A stretch of 64,000 bases of DNA. Origin: Roseimicrobium gellanilyticum. Its GTDB lineage: Bacteria; Verrucomicrobiota; Verrucomicrobiia; Verrucomicrobiales; Verrucomicrobiaceae. The notes under the pieces were generated by a model, which saw only the letters and a program-made list of their open reading frames with translations, searched no databases and had not been told where the DNA came from. A program made the translations under genes and the position numbers. Of the stretch, positions 3,118 to 62,773 are shown piece by piece. The DNA lies in contig NZ_QNRR01000013.1 of NCBI RefSeq assembly GCF_003315205.1, positions 62,001 through 126,000 on the forward strand. Direction: 5' to 3'. Numbering within the stretch: the first letter of the stretch is position 1; every line of letters begins with the position of its first letter.

Positions 3118-4431
3118 CTAACGATCCAAGAGGCTGAACATCAGGTCTGCTTCGCTGACGACCTGTCCATTCACAATGCAGCGTCCGCGGGCCTGGCCGA
3201 TGGAGCGTTTCACCTTGAGCAGTTCCGCTTCAATGAGCAGGGTATCGCCAGGCATGACCGGGCGGCGCCACTTCACATTATCGGCGCTCATGAAGTAGCC
3301 AATCTTGCCCTGGTTCCCCGGGGTGCGAAGCAGCAGGATGGAGGCAACCTGTGCCATGGCTTCGAGCTGCAGCACGCCCGGCATCACGGGATGGCCGGGA
3401 AAGTGGCCCTGGAAGAAAGGCTCATTGATGGTGACGTTCTTCACGCCCGTGCACTTGTTTTCGCCTTCGAAGCCCACGATGCGATCCACGAGCAGGAAGG
3501 GATAGCGATGCGGCAGGATGCGCATCACTTCATTGATGTCCAACACGGCTTCGCCAGAGGGAAGGCTGAGCGGCACCGGCACCATGGCGCGCATCTCGCT
3601 GTAGGACTTGTGCAGCGCACGGGTGAGTTCCGCATTCGGGCCGTGACCGGGACGCACCGCAATCACGTGGCCGAGGATGCGACGGCCCAGGAGCGTGAGG
3701 TCGCCCACGATGTCCAGAATCTTGTGCCTCACGAACTCTTCCGCGAAGCGCAGCGGGTGCTTTGTCCACGCGGTCTCTCCGCGAATGACAATGGCGCTCT
3801 CCAGCGTGCCACCCTTGATGAGCCCCTTCTCCATGAGATGGGCGATGTCCTCGTAGAAGGTGAAGGTGCGCGCGGGGGCTACCTCCTTCTCGTAGATTTC
3901 CGGAGTGATCTCCGTGGAGAAGAACTGGGTGGCGCGCCCTTGCGGTCCCACATTCGTGCAGGAGATGCGGAACTTCTTGTCCGGCACCACCGTGAGTAGC
4001 GAGCCATCGCGGGACTCGATGTGAATGGGCTCGCGCACCTCAAACACGCGGCGGCGTTCCTCCTGCGCGACAATCCCCGCCTGCTTGATGAGTTGTACGA
4101 AGGGGAGCGAGCTGCCATCCACAATCGGCGGCTCCTGGGCGTCCATCTCGATGATGGCGTTGTCCACGCCCATGCCGGTGAGCGCACTCAGCACGTGCTC
4201 CACGGTGTGCACGTTCACACCGCCATCGGCAATCGTGGTGGCACGCTCGACCTTCTGCACCTTCTCGATGCTGGCGTCGATGAGCGGCTTGTCCTCGATG
4301 TCCATGCGACGGAACTTGAAGCCAAAGTTCTCCGGTGCCGGCTGGATGGTCAGAGTGACCTTCTCACCGGTATGCAGAGAAGTGCCCTCAATGGAGGCGG
4401 GTTTGGCAAGCGTATGCTGGCGGTCGGACAT
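3118..4431 (-). CDS. lpxC-fabZ: Bifunctional UDP-3-O-acyl-N-acetylglucosamine deacetylase / 3-hydroxyacyl-ACP dehydratase (LpxC-FabZ fusion)
   Basis: The 437-residue product joins two enzymes. Residues 1 to about 285 are LpxC, the committed zinc deacetylase of lipid A synthesis, with HTVEH near 75-79, RHKILD near 235-240 (zinc ligands His and Asp) and GHVIAVRPGH with the catalytic histidine. Residues about 300-437 are FabZ, which dehydrates 3-hydroxyacyl-ACP in fatty acid synthesis, with ILPHRYPFLLVDRI and HFPGHPVMPGV. Both modules keep their key residues. The fusion puts enzymes competing for the hydroxyacyl-ACP pool on one chain; it is known from Bacteroidota and some other diderms. The ATG at 4431 is chosen over a GTG at 4443. 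Confidence 0.95.
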   Translation of the reverse strand: MSDRQHTLAKPASIEGTSLHTGEKVTLTIQPAPENFGFKFRRMDIEDKPLIDASIEKVQKVERATTIADGGVNVHTVEHVLSALTGMGVDNAIIEMDAQEPPIVDGSSLPFVQLIKQAGIVAQEERRRVFEVREPIHIESRDGSLLTVVPDKKFRISCTNVGPQGRATQFFSTEITPEIYEKEVAPARTFTFYEDIAHLMEKGLIKGGTLESAIVIRGETAWTKHPLRFAEEFVRHKILDIVGDLTLLGRRILGHVIAVRPGHGPNAELTRALHKSYSEMRAMVPVPLSLPSGEAVLDINEVMRILPHRYPFLLVDRIVGFEGENKCTGVKNVTINEPFFQGHFPGHPVMPGVLQLEAMAQVASILLLRTPGNQGKIGYFMSADNVKWRRPVMPGDTLLIEAELLKVKRSIGQARGRCIVNGQVVSEADLMFSLLDR

Positions 4432-4512
4432 GGGACGGGTCACTTAGCCGGGTGGGATGGAGCGGTCAACGGGAAGCTAGGGTCCGAAAGAACCAGCCTT
4501 CCTCCTCAGAAA

Positions 4513-8280: not shown

Positions 8281-8309
8281 TTGACACGCTGGGTTCAAAC
8301 CCCTAGCAT
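8281..8309 (+). promoter_or_regulatory. Putative sigma-70 type promoter for the 8329 gene
   Basis: TTGACA at 8281-8286 and TAGCAT at 8304-8309 are separated by exactly 17 bp. The -35 matches consensus fully and the -10 at 4 of 6 positions. It lies 20 nt before the ATG at 8329, leaving a very short leader and no visible Shine-Dalgarno site. Confidence 0.5.
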
Positions 8310-8328: not shown

Positions 8329-9579
8329 ATGCCCCAAACTTCCGCCATCCTGCACCCGGATTCGGACAAGGCTCACTACCTTGCCCAGGGGGTGCTGTGC
8401 GTGCTCGCGGCCTCCACGGTGGCCGGTGTGGCATGGGCGTTCTGGCATGGCGTGGGACAGCCCTCTGCTCAAGCAAACGGCGCCCCCTTGACCGCCACTT
8501 CCGGCATGCCGGCACCGGCCGTCTCGCCCATACCTGCCCCTGCACCCGTCACACTTCCGCCATCCACTCCCCTGCCGCCAGACTCGATGGTGCTCGCACC
8601 GCCCATCCTGCCCTCGGATCTGAGCGCACCCGTGAATCCCACGATTCCCATCATGCCGTTGGAGCGCCCGCCGGCGCCTACAGCTGCGGCGCTTGCGAGC
8701 CAGCCGCCGCCCCCGATGACGAACACCCTGCCTGCGCTGACGGGTGTTGCCATGACGCCCTCCACGATTGCACCGATTGGTGAGCCCTCCTTGGCGCCCT
8801 CCCGGCTTCCGGCACTGCCTCCCGGCAAGGAGCTGAAGAACCCGCAGGCAAGAGAATCGGTCACCGCTGCACGCCACGCACGCAAGCTGCAGGACATGCG
8901 CGCCGCGCTCGACGAACTGCGTACGGCGGATCTGCGGGAACCAAACCATCCCGAAATCCTGGGCGAAATGGCCCTGACCTACGAAGCCATGGGCCTTGGC
9001 ACCAAAGCGCAGGCATCGTGGAAGCAGATCGCTGCTTTGGGTGAGGCTGAGGCAGGCGGCTACTACCTGCTGGCGAAGTCCAAGCTGGATGCCGCCGCCG
9101 AATCGGCGCCGCCTCCCGGCACTCCTGCCAGCCCGGTACGCCTTGGCAACTGCACCGTGGTCCAGGATCCCACCGTGCAGAAAGGCGAGCGCATCACCGT
9201 GCGCGTCCCTGTCATCTCGACTCCCGGTGCCACCATCAATCCCGGAGAAATGGCCATCCATGTCTTGCTCTTTGAGTCCGTCAATAACGGCGAGCGCATC
9301 GAGCAGGTGCGGGCCGCACCTCCGAAAGAAAGCTGGGTATCCGACCCCGTAAACTGGCAGGACGAAACACGCGAGGAACTCGTGGACGTGGTCTACGACC
9401 TCCCTCCTCCCACCGCCGAGCAAATCCGCGATCTCGGCAGGCGCAAATTTCACGGTTATATAGTGAAACTGTTCTACCAGGACAGACTGGTGGGTGAACA
9501 GGTACAGCCTGAGTCACTGCGGGAAACGGCCCGGCGCAACTCGCCCGGTGGCCTGGACAATTCCCTCTTCCCCAAGTGA
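8329..9579 (+). CDS. Membrane-anchored Pro-rich protein with TPR-like region
   Basis: The protein of about 416 residues has one transmembrane segment near its N-terminus (QGVLCVLAASTVAGVAWAF). About 120 residues rich in Pro and Ala follow, probably an extended periplasmic linker. Then comes a helical region from SVTAARHARKLQDMRAALDEL through EPNHPEILGEMALTYEAMG that reads like one or two TPR units. A beta-rich C-terminal domain (LGNCTVVQDPTVQKGERI, VDVVYDLPPPTAEQIRDLG) completes it. No enzymatic motif is seen. Its stop overlaps the GTG start of the next gene (GTGA), so the two are translationally coupled and likely work together. Confidence 0.75.
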   Translation: MPQTSAILHPDSDKAHYLAQGVLCVLAASTVAGVAWAFWHGVGQPSAQANGAPLTATSGMPAPAVSPIPAPAPVTLPPSTPLPPDSMVLAPPILPSDLSAPVNPTIPIMPLERPPAPTAAALASQPPPPMTNTLPALTGVAMTPSTIAPIGEPSLAPSRLPALPPGKELKNPQARESVTAARHARKLQDMRAALDELRTADLREPNHPEILGEMALTYEAMGLGTKAQASWKQIAALGEAEAGGYYLLAKSKLDAAAESAPPPGTPASPVRLGNCTVVQDPTVQKGERITVRVPVISTPGATINPGEMAIHVLLFESVNNGERIEQVRAAPPKESWVSDPVNWQDETREELVDVVYDLPPPTAEQIRDLGRRKFHGYIVKLFYQDRLVGEQVQPESLRETARRNSPGGLDNSLFPK

Positions 9580-11678
9580 ACGAAACTCCTGGCTCAATAG
9601 TGGTGCTGTTTGTGGATCCGGATGCGGAGGTACGCACCCGCCGCGTCGCTACGCTCACCAGCCGTGGTGTCACCGTGCTGGAAGCGGAAGACGCCGAGAC
9701 CGGTGTGATTGTAGCTCAGACACTCAAGCGGCTCGATGTGCTGGTCAGCGAGGGCTACCTCAAGGAGGGCGGCTACACCGGATTCGATCTTCGTGATGCG
9801 GTGAAGCAGAAGTTCCCGCAGGTACGCACGATTTTCACAAGCCGGTACGAACTGACCGGCTACGAGCAGTACTTCGAAGGCTGCCCCCTCATGGTGGAGC
9901 CCGTGAACGAGTCCCAACTTTTCAGTGAAGTGCTCGGCCTCCGCGAATCTGGTGCCGCCAAGCCCGCAACCGCTGTACCGAAGGCAGTCATGTCGGCTCC
10001 TGTGGCAGTGGCTGTTGCCGTTCCTGATGATGGCGTGGCAAAGGCGGTACTCGTGGAAGACGACGAGGAGAACCAGCCCCACAGTCTGGCACCGAAAACC
10101 GACCTCGGAAACTACACGGTCACCGAGCACCTCTATGCGGAACGTGACGCGGAGACCTACCTGGCCATCCAGCGCGGGGTGAACCGCGAGGTCGTGCTGG
10201 TGCTGCTGCGTCCCGATAGGGTGAACCAACCCGGTGCGCTGGATGCCTTCCATGAGCGCGAACGCGTGAAGGCCTCCATCGCACACCCACGCATCGCACC
10301 TCTCTACGAGGCGCTGGAAGTGGGCGGCCGCCATTTCTACACCCGCGAAATGCCCAATGGACGCTCCGTCGAAGAGCTTCAGGAGGCAGGCACCAAGTTC
10401 AAGGAAAAGCAACTGGTCGACATCATCGCCAATGTCGCGGAAGCCATGGGGCACGCCACCGGGCGTGGCCACCACTACCGTATGCTGAGCCCCCGCGATG
10501 TCTTCGTGGATGACGAGGGCCAGGCCAGTATCGTGAACGTCTTCCGTCCTCCCGGAGACAAGCCACGGGATTTCCAGGCGGACACAAAGAAGTTCCTCAT
10601 CATGCTGCGGCTCCTGGCGGACGGCCCTCGTGCCCGGCATCTCATTGATGACCTCGTGCGGGAATCCCACACCTGGGAAAATCTCTCGAGCCGTGCGAAG
10701 GAACTGCAGGAGGAATTTCACGAGCGCAGCCTGCTGAAGCGCGCAGACACCAAGGAGGCTCACGACATCAAGGCCGCGCACGAGCGGTTGAGCGTGCCTG
10801 TCTGGGTGCTTGGCCTCTCCGCCGTGGTGGTGGTGGGTCTGGTAACCGGCATCGTCCTGCGCAACCGCAGTGTGCCACCACCCCCACCGAAGCCACTGCA
10901 GGTAGAAATGGTGGCCATTCCCGCAGGTGAATTCACCTACCAGCAGGAGACGGAGAAGCGGGTGAACAACGCCTTCTGGATCGACAAGTATGAAGTGACC
11001 ATCGGCCAATACGAGGAGTTCCTCGACGCGCTGGCCAAGGATCCCGCGAAGGCCAAAGCTTACGATCACGCCGATCAGCCGGCTGCGAAAAAGGATCACC
11101 TGCCTGACAAGTGGAGCGACTACTTGGACGCCGCACGCACGGCGGGCTACTTCAACAACCAGCCGGTCAACATCAACTGTCCCATCGCGAACATCGACTG
11201 GTGGGATGCCTGGGCCTATGCGAAGTGGCGCGGCCACCGGCTGCCCACGGAGGAAGAATGGGAGCGCGCCGCACGCGGTCGTGAAGGACGCGTTCATCCC
11301 TGGGGCAACGACGACAAGCCGAAGGCTGCAAACCTCGGCGCGGACTACGAACCCAAAGGAAAGGGCGGGACGGTCGATGGCTTCAACTTCTGGGCGCCCG
11401 AGGACAAGATGCCTGACGACGTGAGCGAAGACGGCGCCATCGGTCTTGCGGGCAACGTGGAGGAATGGACGGCCACGCACGCGAACCATCCGGACTACCC
11501 TGACCTCCCCGTGCCAGTGGTACGCGGTGGGCACTTTGCCCTGAACCGGCCTGCCAATGTGCTCACCATCCGTACCTTTGCCGATTCCCCGGAAAACGCC
11601 ACCATTGCCCGCGGCTTCCGTACGGTTAGTGACACCCCACCCCCGGCCACAGCCACCGCCGCCGAGTCCTCCCGCTGA
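9576..11678 (+). CDS. Degenerate receiver + pseudokinase + transmembrane + FGE/SUMF1-like protein
   Basis: The 700 residues split into four parts. Residues 7-120 fold like a response-regulator receiver (VLFVDPDAE), but the phosphoacceptor region reads VLVSEGY and the conserved lysine position reads VEPV. Residues about 178-390 resemble a Hanks-type kinase without the glycine loop, with VVLVLL in place of VAIK and YRMLSP in place of HRDLKP. Residues 408-428 form one membrane span. Residues 443-685 are an FGE-sulfatase domain (MVAIPAGEF, IDKYEVTIGQY, RLPTEEEWERAARG, GLAGNVEEW, RGFRTV) lacking the catalytic cysteines. All three modules seem built for binding, not catalysis. The GTG start at 9576 overlaps the upstream stop. 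Confidence 0.85.
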   Translation: MNETPGSIVVLFVDPDAEVRTRRVATLTSRGVTVLEAEDAETGVIVAQTLKRLDVLVSEGYLKEGGYTGFDLRDAVKQKFPQVRTIFTSRYELTGYEQYFEGCPLMVEPVNESQLFSEVLGLRESGAAKPATAVPKAVMSAPVAVAVAVPDDGVAKAVLVEDDEENQPHSLAPKTDLGNYTVTEHLYAERDAETYLAIQRGVNREVVLVLLRPDRVNQPGALDAFHERERVKASIAHPRIAPLYEALEVGGRHFYTREMPNGRSVEELQEAGTKFKEKQLVDIIANVAEAMGHATGRGHHYRMLSPRDVFVDDEGQASIVNVFRPPGDKPRDFQADTKKFLIMLRLLADGPRARHLIDDLVRESHTWENLSSRAKELQEEFHERSLLKRADTKEAHDIKAAHERLSVPVWVLGLSAVVVVGLVTGIVLRNRSVPPPPPKPLQVEMVAIPAGEFTYQQETEKRVNNAFWIDKYEVTIGQYEEFLDALAKDPAKAKAYDHADQPAAKKDHLPDKWSDYLDAARTAGYFNNQPVNINCPIANIDWWDAWAYAKWRGHRLPTEEEWERAARGREGRVHPWGNDDKPKAANLGADYEPKGKGGTVDGFNFWAPEDKMPDDVSEDGAIGLAGNVEEWTATHANHPDYPDLPVPVVRGGHFALNRPANVLTIRTFADSPENATIARGFRTVSDTPPPATATAAESSR

Positions 11679-11750: not shown

Positions 11751-12638
11751 ATGTCCAGCCCCCGCTTTTCCACCCTTTGCCTGCTCCTGCTGCTCTCCGT
11801 TTTTGCAGCAGTGCCAGCACGCGCCCAGTTCGAAACCCAGCTCCGCCTCAACAAGCAAAACTACCTCGTGGGTGAGGTGGTGGAGGCCACGGTGACCATC
11901 ATCAATCGCTCCGGTGCTGACGTGGTGATGGGCGGTCGCAATGGCCAGTCATGGCTCAGCTTCGAAGTGAACGGTCCCGATGGCAGCCAGGTGCCGATGA
12001 TGCGCTCACGCGCGGATGAGACTTTCGTCTTCAAGGCCGGCGCCACCTACCGTCGCAAAGTGCTGGTGACGGATACGCATCCTTTCACCGAGTACGGAAA
12101 CTATGGAGTGTGCGCGCTCATTTATCACCCGAGCAGCCAGCAGACCTACCAGTCCAACCGCATGCGCGCGACCTTCGTGGATTCGAAGGCATTTTGGGAC
12201 AAGACCTTTGGCGTACCCATGGGCATGCCAAACGCGGGACAAATCCGCCGGTACGATCTGGTTCTCGTACGCGACACGCAGCACACCTACCTCTACGCAC
12301 GCCTGGTGGATCAGAACACGAACATCCGCCTCGCCACATACGCCATGGGCCCCTGCATCATGGTGGCCAATCCGCAGATGACGCTCGACTCGAGCAATAC
12401 CCTGCACGTCCTTTTCATGACTGTGCCGCACACCTATGCGCACATGACCATGGACTCGCAGGGCAAAGTGCACCTGGTGGGTTACCACAAGGAGATCAAA
12501 TCCAATCGTCCACAGCTTGTGGTGCAGGCGGACCAGCGGACCATCGGGGTGACTGGTGGCCAGGTTTACGACCCGAATTCGCCGGCCGCCGCAGGCCCCG
12601 CCGTGCGCTCGGTCGGCGATCGCCCGCCCGGACTGTGA
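11751..12638 (+). CDS. Secreted protein of unknown function
   Basis: This 295-residue protein has a clear Sec signal peptide (FSTLCLLLLLSVFAAVPARA, cleavage likely after ARA). The first 110 residues look like an immunoglobulin-like beta sandwich (LRLNKQNYLVGEVVEATVTIINRSG), as in BsuPI/CARDB-like intracellular-proteinase-inhibitor folds. The rest (LVLVRDTQHTYLYARLVDQN, LHVLFMTVPHTYAHMTMD) is not recognised. It lies 72 nt after the pseudokinase gene on the same strand, but there is no functional hint beyond that. Confidence 0.75.
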   Translation: MSSPRFSTLCLLLLLSVFAAVPARAQFETQLRLNKQNYLVGEVVEATVTIINRSGADVVMGGRNGQSWLSFEVNGPDGSQVPMMRSRADETFVFKAGATYRRKVLVTDTHPFTEYGNYGVCALIYHPSSQQTYQSNRMRATFVDSKAFWDKTFGVPMGMPNAGQIRRYDLVLVRDTQHTYLYARLVDQNTNIRLATYAMGPCIMVANPQMTLDSSNTLHVLFMTVPHTYAHMTMDSQGKVHLVGYHKEIKSNRPQLVVQADQRTIGVTGGQVYDPNSPAAAGPAVRSVGDRPPGL

Positions 12639-61042: not shown

Positions 61043-62773
61043 TTACTTGACCAAAATATCATCCGGCAATGTTTCCCCTGCCGGGATGGGCTGTTCTTCC
61101 CAGGTGGCTTGTTTGGTCGCGGGGTCATAGGTCAGCACCCGGCTCTTGCTGCCGGGGACGGGTGGCACGTCGACCTTGGGGAGCCACTGGGCGAGGTCGG
61201 CTTTTTGGGCGGCGTGCTTGGGGTCGCTGGCGAGGTTGGTCCATTCGTTGGGGTCGGACTGTTCGTCGTAGAGTTCCTCGGAGCCATCGGCGTACTTGAT
61301 GTAGCGCCAGTAGCGGGTGCGGATGGTGTGGTTTCCCTGGTTGTGCGTGGTGATGGCGGGGGACTCGCGAGGGGTAGAGGCGTCCTTCAACTGGCGGGCG
61401 AGGCTGTGGCCCTCGAGGTCGGAGCGCGGGGGGAGGCCGGTGAGGTCGAGGAGGGTGGGGAAGACATCCAGCAGCTCGACGGCGGCGGAGCAGCGGGCGC
61501 CAGCGGTGATGCCGGGGCCGGCCCAGATGAAGGGGACGCGGGTGCTGCGCTCCCAGAGGGTATTCTTCCCAGTGATGCCCTTTTCCCCGAGGTGCCAGCC
61601 GTGGTCGCCCCAGACGATGACGATGGTATTCTCCAGCTGGCCGGACTTCTCTAGGGCCTTCAGCAGGCGGCCGGCCTGGCTGTCCATGAAGCTGATGCTG
61701 GCGAGATAGGCGCGGACGAGGGGGCGCCATTCATCGAGGAGTTGGAGGGTCTTCAGCCGGGGCTCGGGGAGGCGCCAGTGCAGGTAGCTGGCGAAGGGGG
61801 GGAGGTCGGCGCGGTCGTCCTCCTTCACGGGGGGCATGACGAGCTTGTCATCGGCGGGGTAGAGGTCGAACCACTTCTTCGACGCGAAGCAGGGGACGTG
61901 GGGGAGGCGGAAGCCGGCGGCGATGAACCAGGGCTTGTCCTTGGGCGCGGACTCGAGCTTGGCGATGGCAGCATCGGCGATCTGCCAGTCGGCCTGGTCC
62001 TCGTCCTTCTCGGGGAAGACGCCCCAGTCCATGGCGGGGTGGCGGCCTTCGATGGTGAGCTTGGCAATGGTCTGGGGAGGCTTCGGCATGCCGGGGGCGG
62101 GGCCGACCTCGGTGAACTCGGGGGGGAGGTTGCCAGCCGGGGCGTTCCGAGTGGCTGGGGCGGCAGGTGAGGGCTTCGCCTTGCCGGAGGGGTTGGCGGC
62201 GTTTTTCTTTCCCTGAGGAGTGGTGGCGGTGACCGCGCCGGTGCGCATGGAGCCATCGTGATACACCTTCCCACACGCATAGGTGTAGTAGCCGTGCTTC
62301 ATGAGCTCCTGCGGGAGGGTGACGTGCTTCCGCAGGCTATCGACGGCGCGGATGCCAGGAGCGAGGCCGTAGATGCCGGTGGAGCTGGGACGCAGCCCGG
62401 TCATGAGGGAGGCGCGGGAAGGATTGCAGAGGGGGGCCTGGCAGTGGGCATTCGTGAAGAGGGTGCCGCGGGCCGCGAGGGCATCGAGATGCGGGGTCTG
62501 CACCTGGGGATGGCCGCCGAGGCAGCCGAGCCAGTCGTTCTGATCGTCGATGGCGATCATGAGGATGTTTGGCCGGGTGGGGGCGGTGGATGAAGAGGGG
62601 AGACCCGGAGAAGACGGAGACGCGGAGGAGGACTGGCTGCCGCGGGAGGGGATGAGCTGGGAGCGGGATGGGGTGGATGTAGATTGGGCGGAGAGGGTGG
62701 CGCCCATGCCCGCGAGGAGTGCGCATGCGAGTGCCAGGAGCGTGGGGAGCGAGCGGGAAGAAGCGGATGTCAT
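61043..62773 (-). CDS. Exported sulfatase (iduronate-2-sulfatase-like)
   Basis: From the ATG at 62773 the protein has 576 residues with a signal peptide (SLPTLLALACALLAGMGATL). The sulfatase core starts at RPNILMIAIDDQNDWLGCLG with the metal-binding DDQ. The formylglycine site is CNPSRASLMTG with Cys at 116. Further metal and substrate residues lie in VWGDHGWHLGEKG. The closest type is iduronate-2-sulfatase-like enzymes acting on sulfated polysaccharides. It needs a formylglycine-generating enzyme; the FGE-like domain at 9576 lacks the cysteines to do this. A long upstream extension to 63079 is non-homologous. Confidence 0.9.
   Translation of the reverse strand: MTSASSRSLPTLLALACALLAGMGATLSAQSTSTPSRSQLIPSRGSQSSSASPSSPGLPSSSTAPTRPNILMIAIDDQNDWLGCLGGHPQVQTPHLDALAARGTLFTNAHCQAPLCNPSRASLMTGLRPSSTGIYGLAPGIRAVDSLRKHVTLPQELMKHGYYTYACGKVYHDGSMRTGAVTATTPQGKKNAANPSGKAKPSPAAPATRNAPAGNLPPEFTEVGPAPGMPKPPQTIAKLTIEGRHPAMDWGVFPEKDEDQADWQIADAAIAKLESAPKDKPWFIAAGFRLPHVPCFASKKWFDLYPADDKLVMPPVKEDDRADLPPFASYLHWRLPEPRLKTLQLLDEWRPLVRAYLASISFMDSQAGRLLKALEKSGQLENTIVIVWGDHGWHLGEKGITGKNTLWERSTRVPFIWAGPGITAGARCSAAVELLDVFPTLLDLTGLPPRSDLEGHSLARQLKDASTPRESPAITTHNQGNHTIRTRYWRYIKYADGSEELYDEQSDPNEWTNLASDPKHAAQKADLAQWLPKVDVPPVPGSKSRVLTYDPATKQATWEEQPIPAGETLPDDILVK

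Follow-up and report, generated by a model that had tools for sequence, protein, structure and literature searches.

The 64,000-nucleotide window analysed here, positions 62,001 to 126,000 of contig NZ_QNRR01000013.1 of Roseimicrobium gellanilyticum (class Verrucomicrobiia, order Verrucomicrobiales, hereafter the class and the order), contains a gene at positions 9576-11678 for a protein of 700 amino acids in which a receiver-like domain, a kinase-like domain and a domain with the fold of the formylglycine-generating enzyme (FGE) are arranged around a single predicted membrane helix. We infer, with a probability of about 0.55, both a complex and a function for this product: it would be a bitopic adaptor without catalytic activity that forms the middle part of a conserved envelope complex of three proteins in Verrucomicrobiota. 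A preliminary description of the same DNA had already proposed that all three modules are catalytically degenerate and that the protein is a structural scaffold sensing outside ligands. What is added here is the conservation of the gene, its operon partners and the existence of relatives with an intact receiver, and the operon is the strongest of the new facts. The features of the gene are the following:

9576..11678, + strand: receiver-pseudokinase-membrane helix-FGE protein, 700 amino acids, GTG start
9600..9947, + strand: receiver-like domain, residues 9-124, with E59 at the acceptor site, E108 in place of the Lys and D14 retained
10086..10721, + strand: pseudokinase domain, residues 171-382, without glycine loop, activation segment, VAIK Lys, HRD Asp and DFG Asp, the last replaced by Asn321
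10803..10868, + strand: predicted membrane helix, residues 410-431
10893..11645, + strand: FGE-fold domain, residues 440-690, presumed periplasmic, without catalytic cysteines

Domain architecture and loss of the active sites

When the 700-amino-acid protein is scanned alone with Pfam, the FGE family is found above cut-off (8.6e-37, residues 444-684), and Pkinase (3.9e-4) and Response_reg (0.035) both stay under it, leaving the kinase and receiver assignments weak as far as its own sequence goes. They are settled by the relatives and by the structure model. In one class-level relative (L116), a single chain with receiver, DUF4388, kinase and FGE domains, Response_reg (5.8e-17), Pkinase (5.1e-13) and FGE (1.2e-40) all exceed their cut-offs, and Response_reg values among the homologues also include 3e-12. 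Of 30 homologues scanned at an E-value of 0.001, all gave a match to FGE, 11 to Pkinase and 4 to Response_reg. The AlphaFold2 model was built from an alignment containing 84 of 94 homologues, which comprise 54 sequences from a search of the order and 40 from a search of the class, five of the latter belonging to family f2 of the order. Its mean predicted local distance difference test score (pLDDT) is 88.1 and its predicted template modelling score 0.48, and therefore the domains are confident and their mutual placement is not.

In this model, strands and helices alternate through residues 9-124 at high pLDDT, as expected of a receiver fold; no receiver appeared among the VIA matches listed for the whole model, which has no weight against the fold. 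Residues ~171-382 align with PknA/PknB (Z ~19, root-mean-square deviation ~3), forming a bilobal kinase fold with a shortened C-lobe. Likewise, residues ~440-690 match EgtB (Z 26.0), human FGE (24.3) and its paralogue SUMF2 (24.1), so that the Pfam result and a Z of ~24 agree on the FGE fold. The three folds around one membrane helix, as first described, are thus borne out by the model, the fold matches and the Pfam results of relatives.

The active sites are lost in each of the three modules, in the way that the preliminary description had read them. The receiver retains Asp14, and E59 and E108 replace the acceptor Asp and the conserved Lys of a phospho-receiver (PF00072). Alignment of the kinase-like domain with 10 kinases of its own genome shows the glycine loop, VAIK, HRD and DFG motifs replaced in register (LYAERDAE, VVLV, YRM and NVF), with V209 at the VAIK Lys, M303 at the HRD Asp and N321 at the DFG Asp, and the activation segment missing up to APE. 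None of the motifs of an active Ser/Thr kinase (PF00069) is therefore present, and a kinase fold devoid of them would, judging from sequence and model together, be a pseudokinase in the broad sense. Catalytic residues in shifted positions, named beforehand as an observation that would overturn this reading, were looked for in the same alignment and none were found. The only cysteines of the protein are Cys103 and Cys535; the two catalytic cysteines near the C-terminus of formylglycine-generating enzymes are thus absent, and neither Cys103 nor Cys535 presumably lies at an FGE catalytic site. Two cysteines within 30 residues before the GFR motif occur in 4 of the 94 homologues (L062, L070, L073 and L132), at a spacing from that motif which we take not to fit the catalytic pair.

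Ages of the losses and conservation of the gene

Residue counts over the 94 homologues, all depending on a single MAFFT alignment, show that the HRD Asp is kept in none and the DFG Asp in none (Asn in 87, His in 4, Gly in 3), and that the VAIK Lys is kept in 18. Because both catalytic aspartates are missing throughout, the kinase was most simply dead already in the common ancestor, before the class diversified, and some relatives may still bind nucleotide. The three proteins with Gly at the DFG Asp (L126, L132 and L134; 1025, 1461 and 890 amino acids) have no adjoining tetratricopeptide repeat (TPR) or secreted partner of the kind described below and perhaps represent a sister family; they were retained among the 94.

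The receiver shows a different pattern. Among the 83 homologues of at least 560 amino acids, to which the receiver counts are limited, an intact receiver, complete with its two acidic pocket residues, acceptor Asp and Lys, is present in seven (L111, L115, L116, L118, L120, L122 and L130), all outside the order of the window. At the acceptor position 47 of the 83 have Glu and 13 have Asp; of the 49 that came from the order search, 36 have Glu. A Glu here is commonly taken to imitate the phosphorylated form. The Akkermansia-type proteins, of ~511 amino acids, are devoid of a receiver. Since the receiver is intact in 7/83 while the kinase is dead in 94/94, the losses were not a single event and seem to differ in age.

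The preliminary description had proposed looking for the same fusion in other Verrucomicrobiota, and genome searches recover it widely. Of 57 genomes of the order, counting its own, 54 have the gene at an E-value of 1e-20, as one copy per genome, with genomes listed twice containing pieces of one gene; those without a match are G019, G045 and G036, the last of which has a shrunken form. In the class, 113 of 236 genomes match at 1e-40, four of them (G134, G173, G199 and G275) in the second half of the profile only, which is mainly FGE, and in a phylum sample of 288 genomes all 32 matches at 1e-60 fall within the class. The class and phylum searches, like the further search that supplied the simpler operons described below, used profiles and scored 4 to 7 candidates per genome. 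FGE domains as such are common in the order (9/9 sampled genomes). In the genome of the window no second full-length match was found, and kinase and FGE matches coincide nowhere else. A contig scan with the single protein as query gave 26 stretches matching a pattern, none of which was confirmed. Named records with the Akkermansia form belong to Akkermansia muciniphila, Akkermansia sp. and an Akkermansiaceae bacterium. Two small genomes of the Akkermansia type show a reduced middle protein; in these (L168:6399-7784, 461 amino acids, and L169:6678-8072, 464 amino acids) the FGE part has decayed and both partners remain. Open reading frame starts were set at the first start codon, which makes some N-termini too long.

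Comparison of the window with a same-genus relative (85% identical) gave ratios of nonsynonymous to synonymous substitution rates (dN/dS) of 0.12 (receiver), 0.06 (pseudokinase) and 0.07 (FGE domain), values that come from one genome pair with dS near 1. The linker is not similarly constrained, being 63% identical with synonymous sites saturated in the same pair. By these estimates all three modules are under purifying selection.

Operon and partner proteins

The gene begins with a GTG that overlaps by 4 bases with the end of the gene before it, stop codon included, and two genes flank it on the same strand:

8329..9579, + strand: Partner 1, TPR protein with an N-terminal helix 13-41 (presumed membrane anchor), a low-confidence Pro-rich stretch, TPR helices 172-258 and beta strands 270-393
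11751..12638, + strand: Partner 2, 295 amino acids, signal-peptide-like N-terminus (by eye), no Pfam family above cut-off

For Partner 1 an alternative TTG start lies at 8281. Out of eleven window genes compared, only these two accompany the gene through the order. In 37 loci drawn from the 54 order genomes with a match, the TPR gene immediately precedes it on the same strand in all 37, with an overlap or a gap within 180 bp, and the counterpart of Partner 2 is downstream on the same strand within ~250 bp in 30. In 40 further loci chosen for spread from the 113 matching class genomes (35 from other families of the class and five from family f2 of the order), 28 have the TPR gene and 16 the downstream partner next to it. 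The scaffold role suggested in the preliminary description fits these constant partners and the purifying selection on all three modules. The TPR part of Partner 1 has its best structural match in the TPR domain of LpoP (Z 13.3), and Foldseek with the model of the TPR protein gave generic TPR and weak beta-sandwich matches.

Simpler forms of the operon are found among 20 loci taken from 75 matching genomes of a further search, which covered families f12 and f14, loci outside the class and shrunken forms. In family f14, one locus (L153:5536-8557) has the TPR gene followed, with no middle gene, by the secreted partner, an amidase gene and a YjeF gene; in another (L154:5721-10690) the same order is kept and the middle gene encodes a receiver-DUF4388 protein only. 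Because the middle gene is absent or lacks these parts in f14, an older pair of partners either acquired the kinase and FGE parts or lost them.

Proposed role and alternative explanations

In the adaptor model, the receiver and pseudokinase would lie in the cytosol as protein-binding modules offering docking and switching surfaces, and the membrane helix would carry the FGE-fold head into the periplasm. There the head could meet two proteins, the secreted product of the downstream gene and the TPR/beta-strand protein with its own N-terminal anchor. Where relatives have an intact receiver, phosphorylation may set the state of the adaptor, while in the lineage of the window the Glu at the acceptor site may hold it in one state. 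The likeliest process to be served, on weaker evidence, would be remodelling of peptidoglycan or of the envelope, since six families have a peptidoglycan amidase gene after the operon. This amidase-like gene is on the same strand in 11 of 97 loci (families f3, f4, f6, f14, f42 and f45) and is followed by a YjeF-like gene in 8 of those 11; Pfam confirmed Amidase_3 in all five amidases scanned and YjeF in the one scanned. The LpoP match of the TPR part and a Foldseek match to Rv3910, compared below, also speak for the proposal. A more specific version is put forward tentatively: an undescribed trans-envelope signalling complex might run from a phospho-receiver through the dead kinase, as an allosteric relay, and one helix to a dead FGE head, which with the TPR and secreted proteins would control periplasmic peptidoglycan remodelling, and in the order of the window the receiver, locked by the Asp-to-Glu replacement, would let it run without phosphorylation.

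Several observations weigh against the adaptor and its proposed process. The amidase gene was not found in 86 of the 97 loci, where the flanks span a few kb and some are cut by contig ends, nor at the locus of this genome, which has five Amidase_3 matches, none of them there; since amidase next to YjeF is a common gene order elsewhere, the amidase may be a bystander. The downstream partner was not found in 7 of the 37 and 24 of the 40 loci, nor the TPR partner in 12 of the 40. The kinase-FGE part is absent between the partners in f14 (L153, L154), and in f12 a TPR relative stands without the adaptor, so the adaptor is not needed everywhere. Furthermore, a Z of 13 for a helical repeat may reflect only a common arrangement and is not decisive. 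The placement of the FGE head outside rests on the charges around the membrane helix (5 K/R and 4 D/E before it, 1 K/R and 2 D/E after), a weak difference with which it fits weakly.

Among the alternatives, the protein could be an outside sensor whose FGE-fold head binds a sugar, peptide or other ligand, with the cytosolic part relaying the signal. The concentration of invariant columns in the FGE part (26 of 32 among 30 homologues, at 473-682) would suit this, as would the C-type lectin fold of the FGE domain, which serves as the variable ligand-binding part of diversity-generating systems in the available text of one report (PMC7159879). However, no catalytic output domain lies in the cytosol, the FGE part has decayed in the two small Akkermansia-type genomes (L168 and L169) with both partners kept, and the present analysis indicates no ligand or pocket. 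The sensing of outside ligands claimed in the preliminary description thus receives no evidence of its own here, and we consider it possible, on the strength of ligand binding by this fold in other systems, and unlikely. It is less probable again that the complex serves outer-membrane lipid or polysaccharide assembly instead of peptidoglycan: here and in its genus LpxK is encoded two genes upstream, a glycosyltransferase presumably like WaaE follows five TPR relatives from outside the class, and one lies near what we take to be an LpxK-like gene, yet the LpxK linkage is found in only 1/37 order loci.

The two remaining explanations concern the dead active sites themselves. A kinase fold with an unusual catalytic activity, for instance the AMP or glutamyl transfer of SelO and SidJ, is very improbable to us; the Asn at the DFG Asp site in 87/94 homologues and the VAIK Lys kept in 18/94 would be in keeping with it, and such switches are known in pseudokinases according to the accessible part of a review (PMC12599244), but in the 700-amino-acid protein the glycine loop, VAIK Lys, HRD and activation segment are all gone. 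That the gene is a decaying relic without function, as the loss of all three active sites could suggest, is hardly credible in view of dN/dS values of 0.06-0.12 in the three modules, presence in 54/57 genomes and a constant operon.

Comparison with known systems

Among the 50 Foldseek matches listed, the highest target TM-score, 0.67, belonged to Rv3910 of Mycobacterium tuberculosis, which we take to be MviN. In the MviN/ActPs3 family the kinase domain is fused to a multi-helix flippase, and the 700-amino-acid protein, with one predicted membrane helix only, falls outside it. MviN is described in the part of a review available to us as a transmembrane pseudokinase protein essential for peptidoglycan synthesis (PMC12599244). 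As given in the same portion, MviN (ActPs3) and EssB/YukC resemble the 700-amino-acid protein in having a dead kinase beside a membrane segment, a degraded glycine loop and a shortened or missing activation segment, and a scaffold role is ascribed to them (PMC12599244); our protein is likened to both and classed with neither. Unlike them, it shows no flippase part or type VII secretion context, carries a receiver in front and an FGE head behind, and belongs to another phylum. The accessible text of that review, which covers seven bacterial pseudokinase families, contains no mention of Verrucomicrobi*, Akkermansia, FGE, formylglycine, sulfatase or receiver (PMC12599244).

A kinase and a C-terminal FGE domain in one chain, as in our protein, are also found in chlamydial Pkn1, compared by description only; in contrast, Pkn1 is reported to phosphorylate IncG, and no receiver is mentioned in the available part of that report (PMC3581485). 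The kinase-FGE type of chain is therefore already known, and what differs is the receiver in front, the kinase dead in all homologues examined and the constant partners. No description of a receiver-pseudokinase-FGE fusion was found in the literature searched, whose coverage was without most subscription journals. In Akkermansia the system could conceivably be identical with the complex of the mucin utilization locus (MUL).

With regard to the FGE fold, the best sequence match among solved structures is SUMF2 (pFGE), the human FGE paralogue (7.9e-20). SUMF2 is without the two catalytic cysteines and is not known to be fused to signalling modules; EgtB and PorK also lack the pair, and PorK/GldK use the fold as a structural part. 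The arrangement had been called unusual beforehand, which holds for the combination of modules and not for an FGE fold without catalytic cysteines, well known from these three proteins among the matches. The sulfoxide and selenoneine synthases EgtB and SenA share the FGE-fold domain, EgtB being the top VIA match, and identity with them was rejected because the scores, 57.5 and 58.6 bits, fall below the NCBIfam cut-offs (360 and 420). Likewise, PorK/GldK of type IX secretion (Z 22.8) have partners that differ from those found here, and identity was rejected at 42.5 bits against the NCBIfam GldK cut-off of 350. A defence system was also rejected, as the PADLOC matches are kinase similarity in residues 166-321 only, with none for the two partners.

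Wider gene neighbourhood

Together with the amidase genes, an HtrA-type protease gene in the wider surroundings points to the envelope. It lies directly upstream on the same strand in L111, L115 and L131 and ~2 kb upstream in L112 (two of them Pfam-scanned). A distant SpoU relative occurs at one more locus (L056). Three genomes of a single other genus share the acyl-CoA-synthetase-like gene, 3-4 kb off and on the opposite strand. Upstream of the operon and divergent from it, a chorismate-binding (TrpE-like) gene is present in 18 loci, one of them Pfam-scanned (L048-L054, L056, L058, L061, L064, L068, L069, L074-L076, L146 and L148), and is probably there by chance of ancestry. The TPR relatives outside the class that precede a glycosyltransferase-like gene are L158, L160, L163, L166 and L167. 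Elsewhere in the window, a 441-amino-acid open reading frame at 3118-4443 on the - strand presumably encodes LpxC fused to FabZ.

Significance

Bacterial pseudokinases are little studied, and the one described here is single-copy in its order, conserved across much of the class and present in Akkermansia muciniphila. Its two constant partner genes make the 700-amino-acid protein readily testable. The series from an intact receiver through a Glu receiver to its complete absence, in each case with a kinase that had died earlier, represents a natural experiment in how catalytic domains become binding modules.

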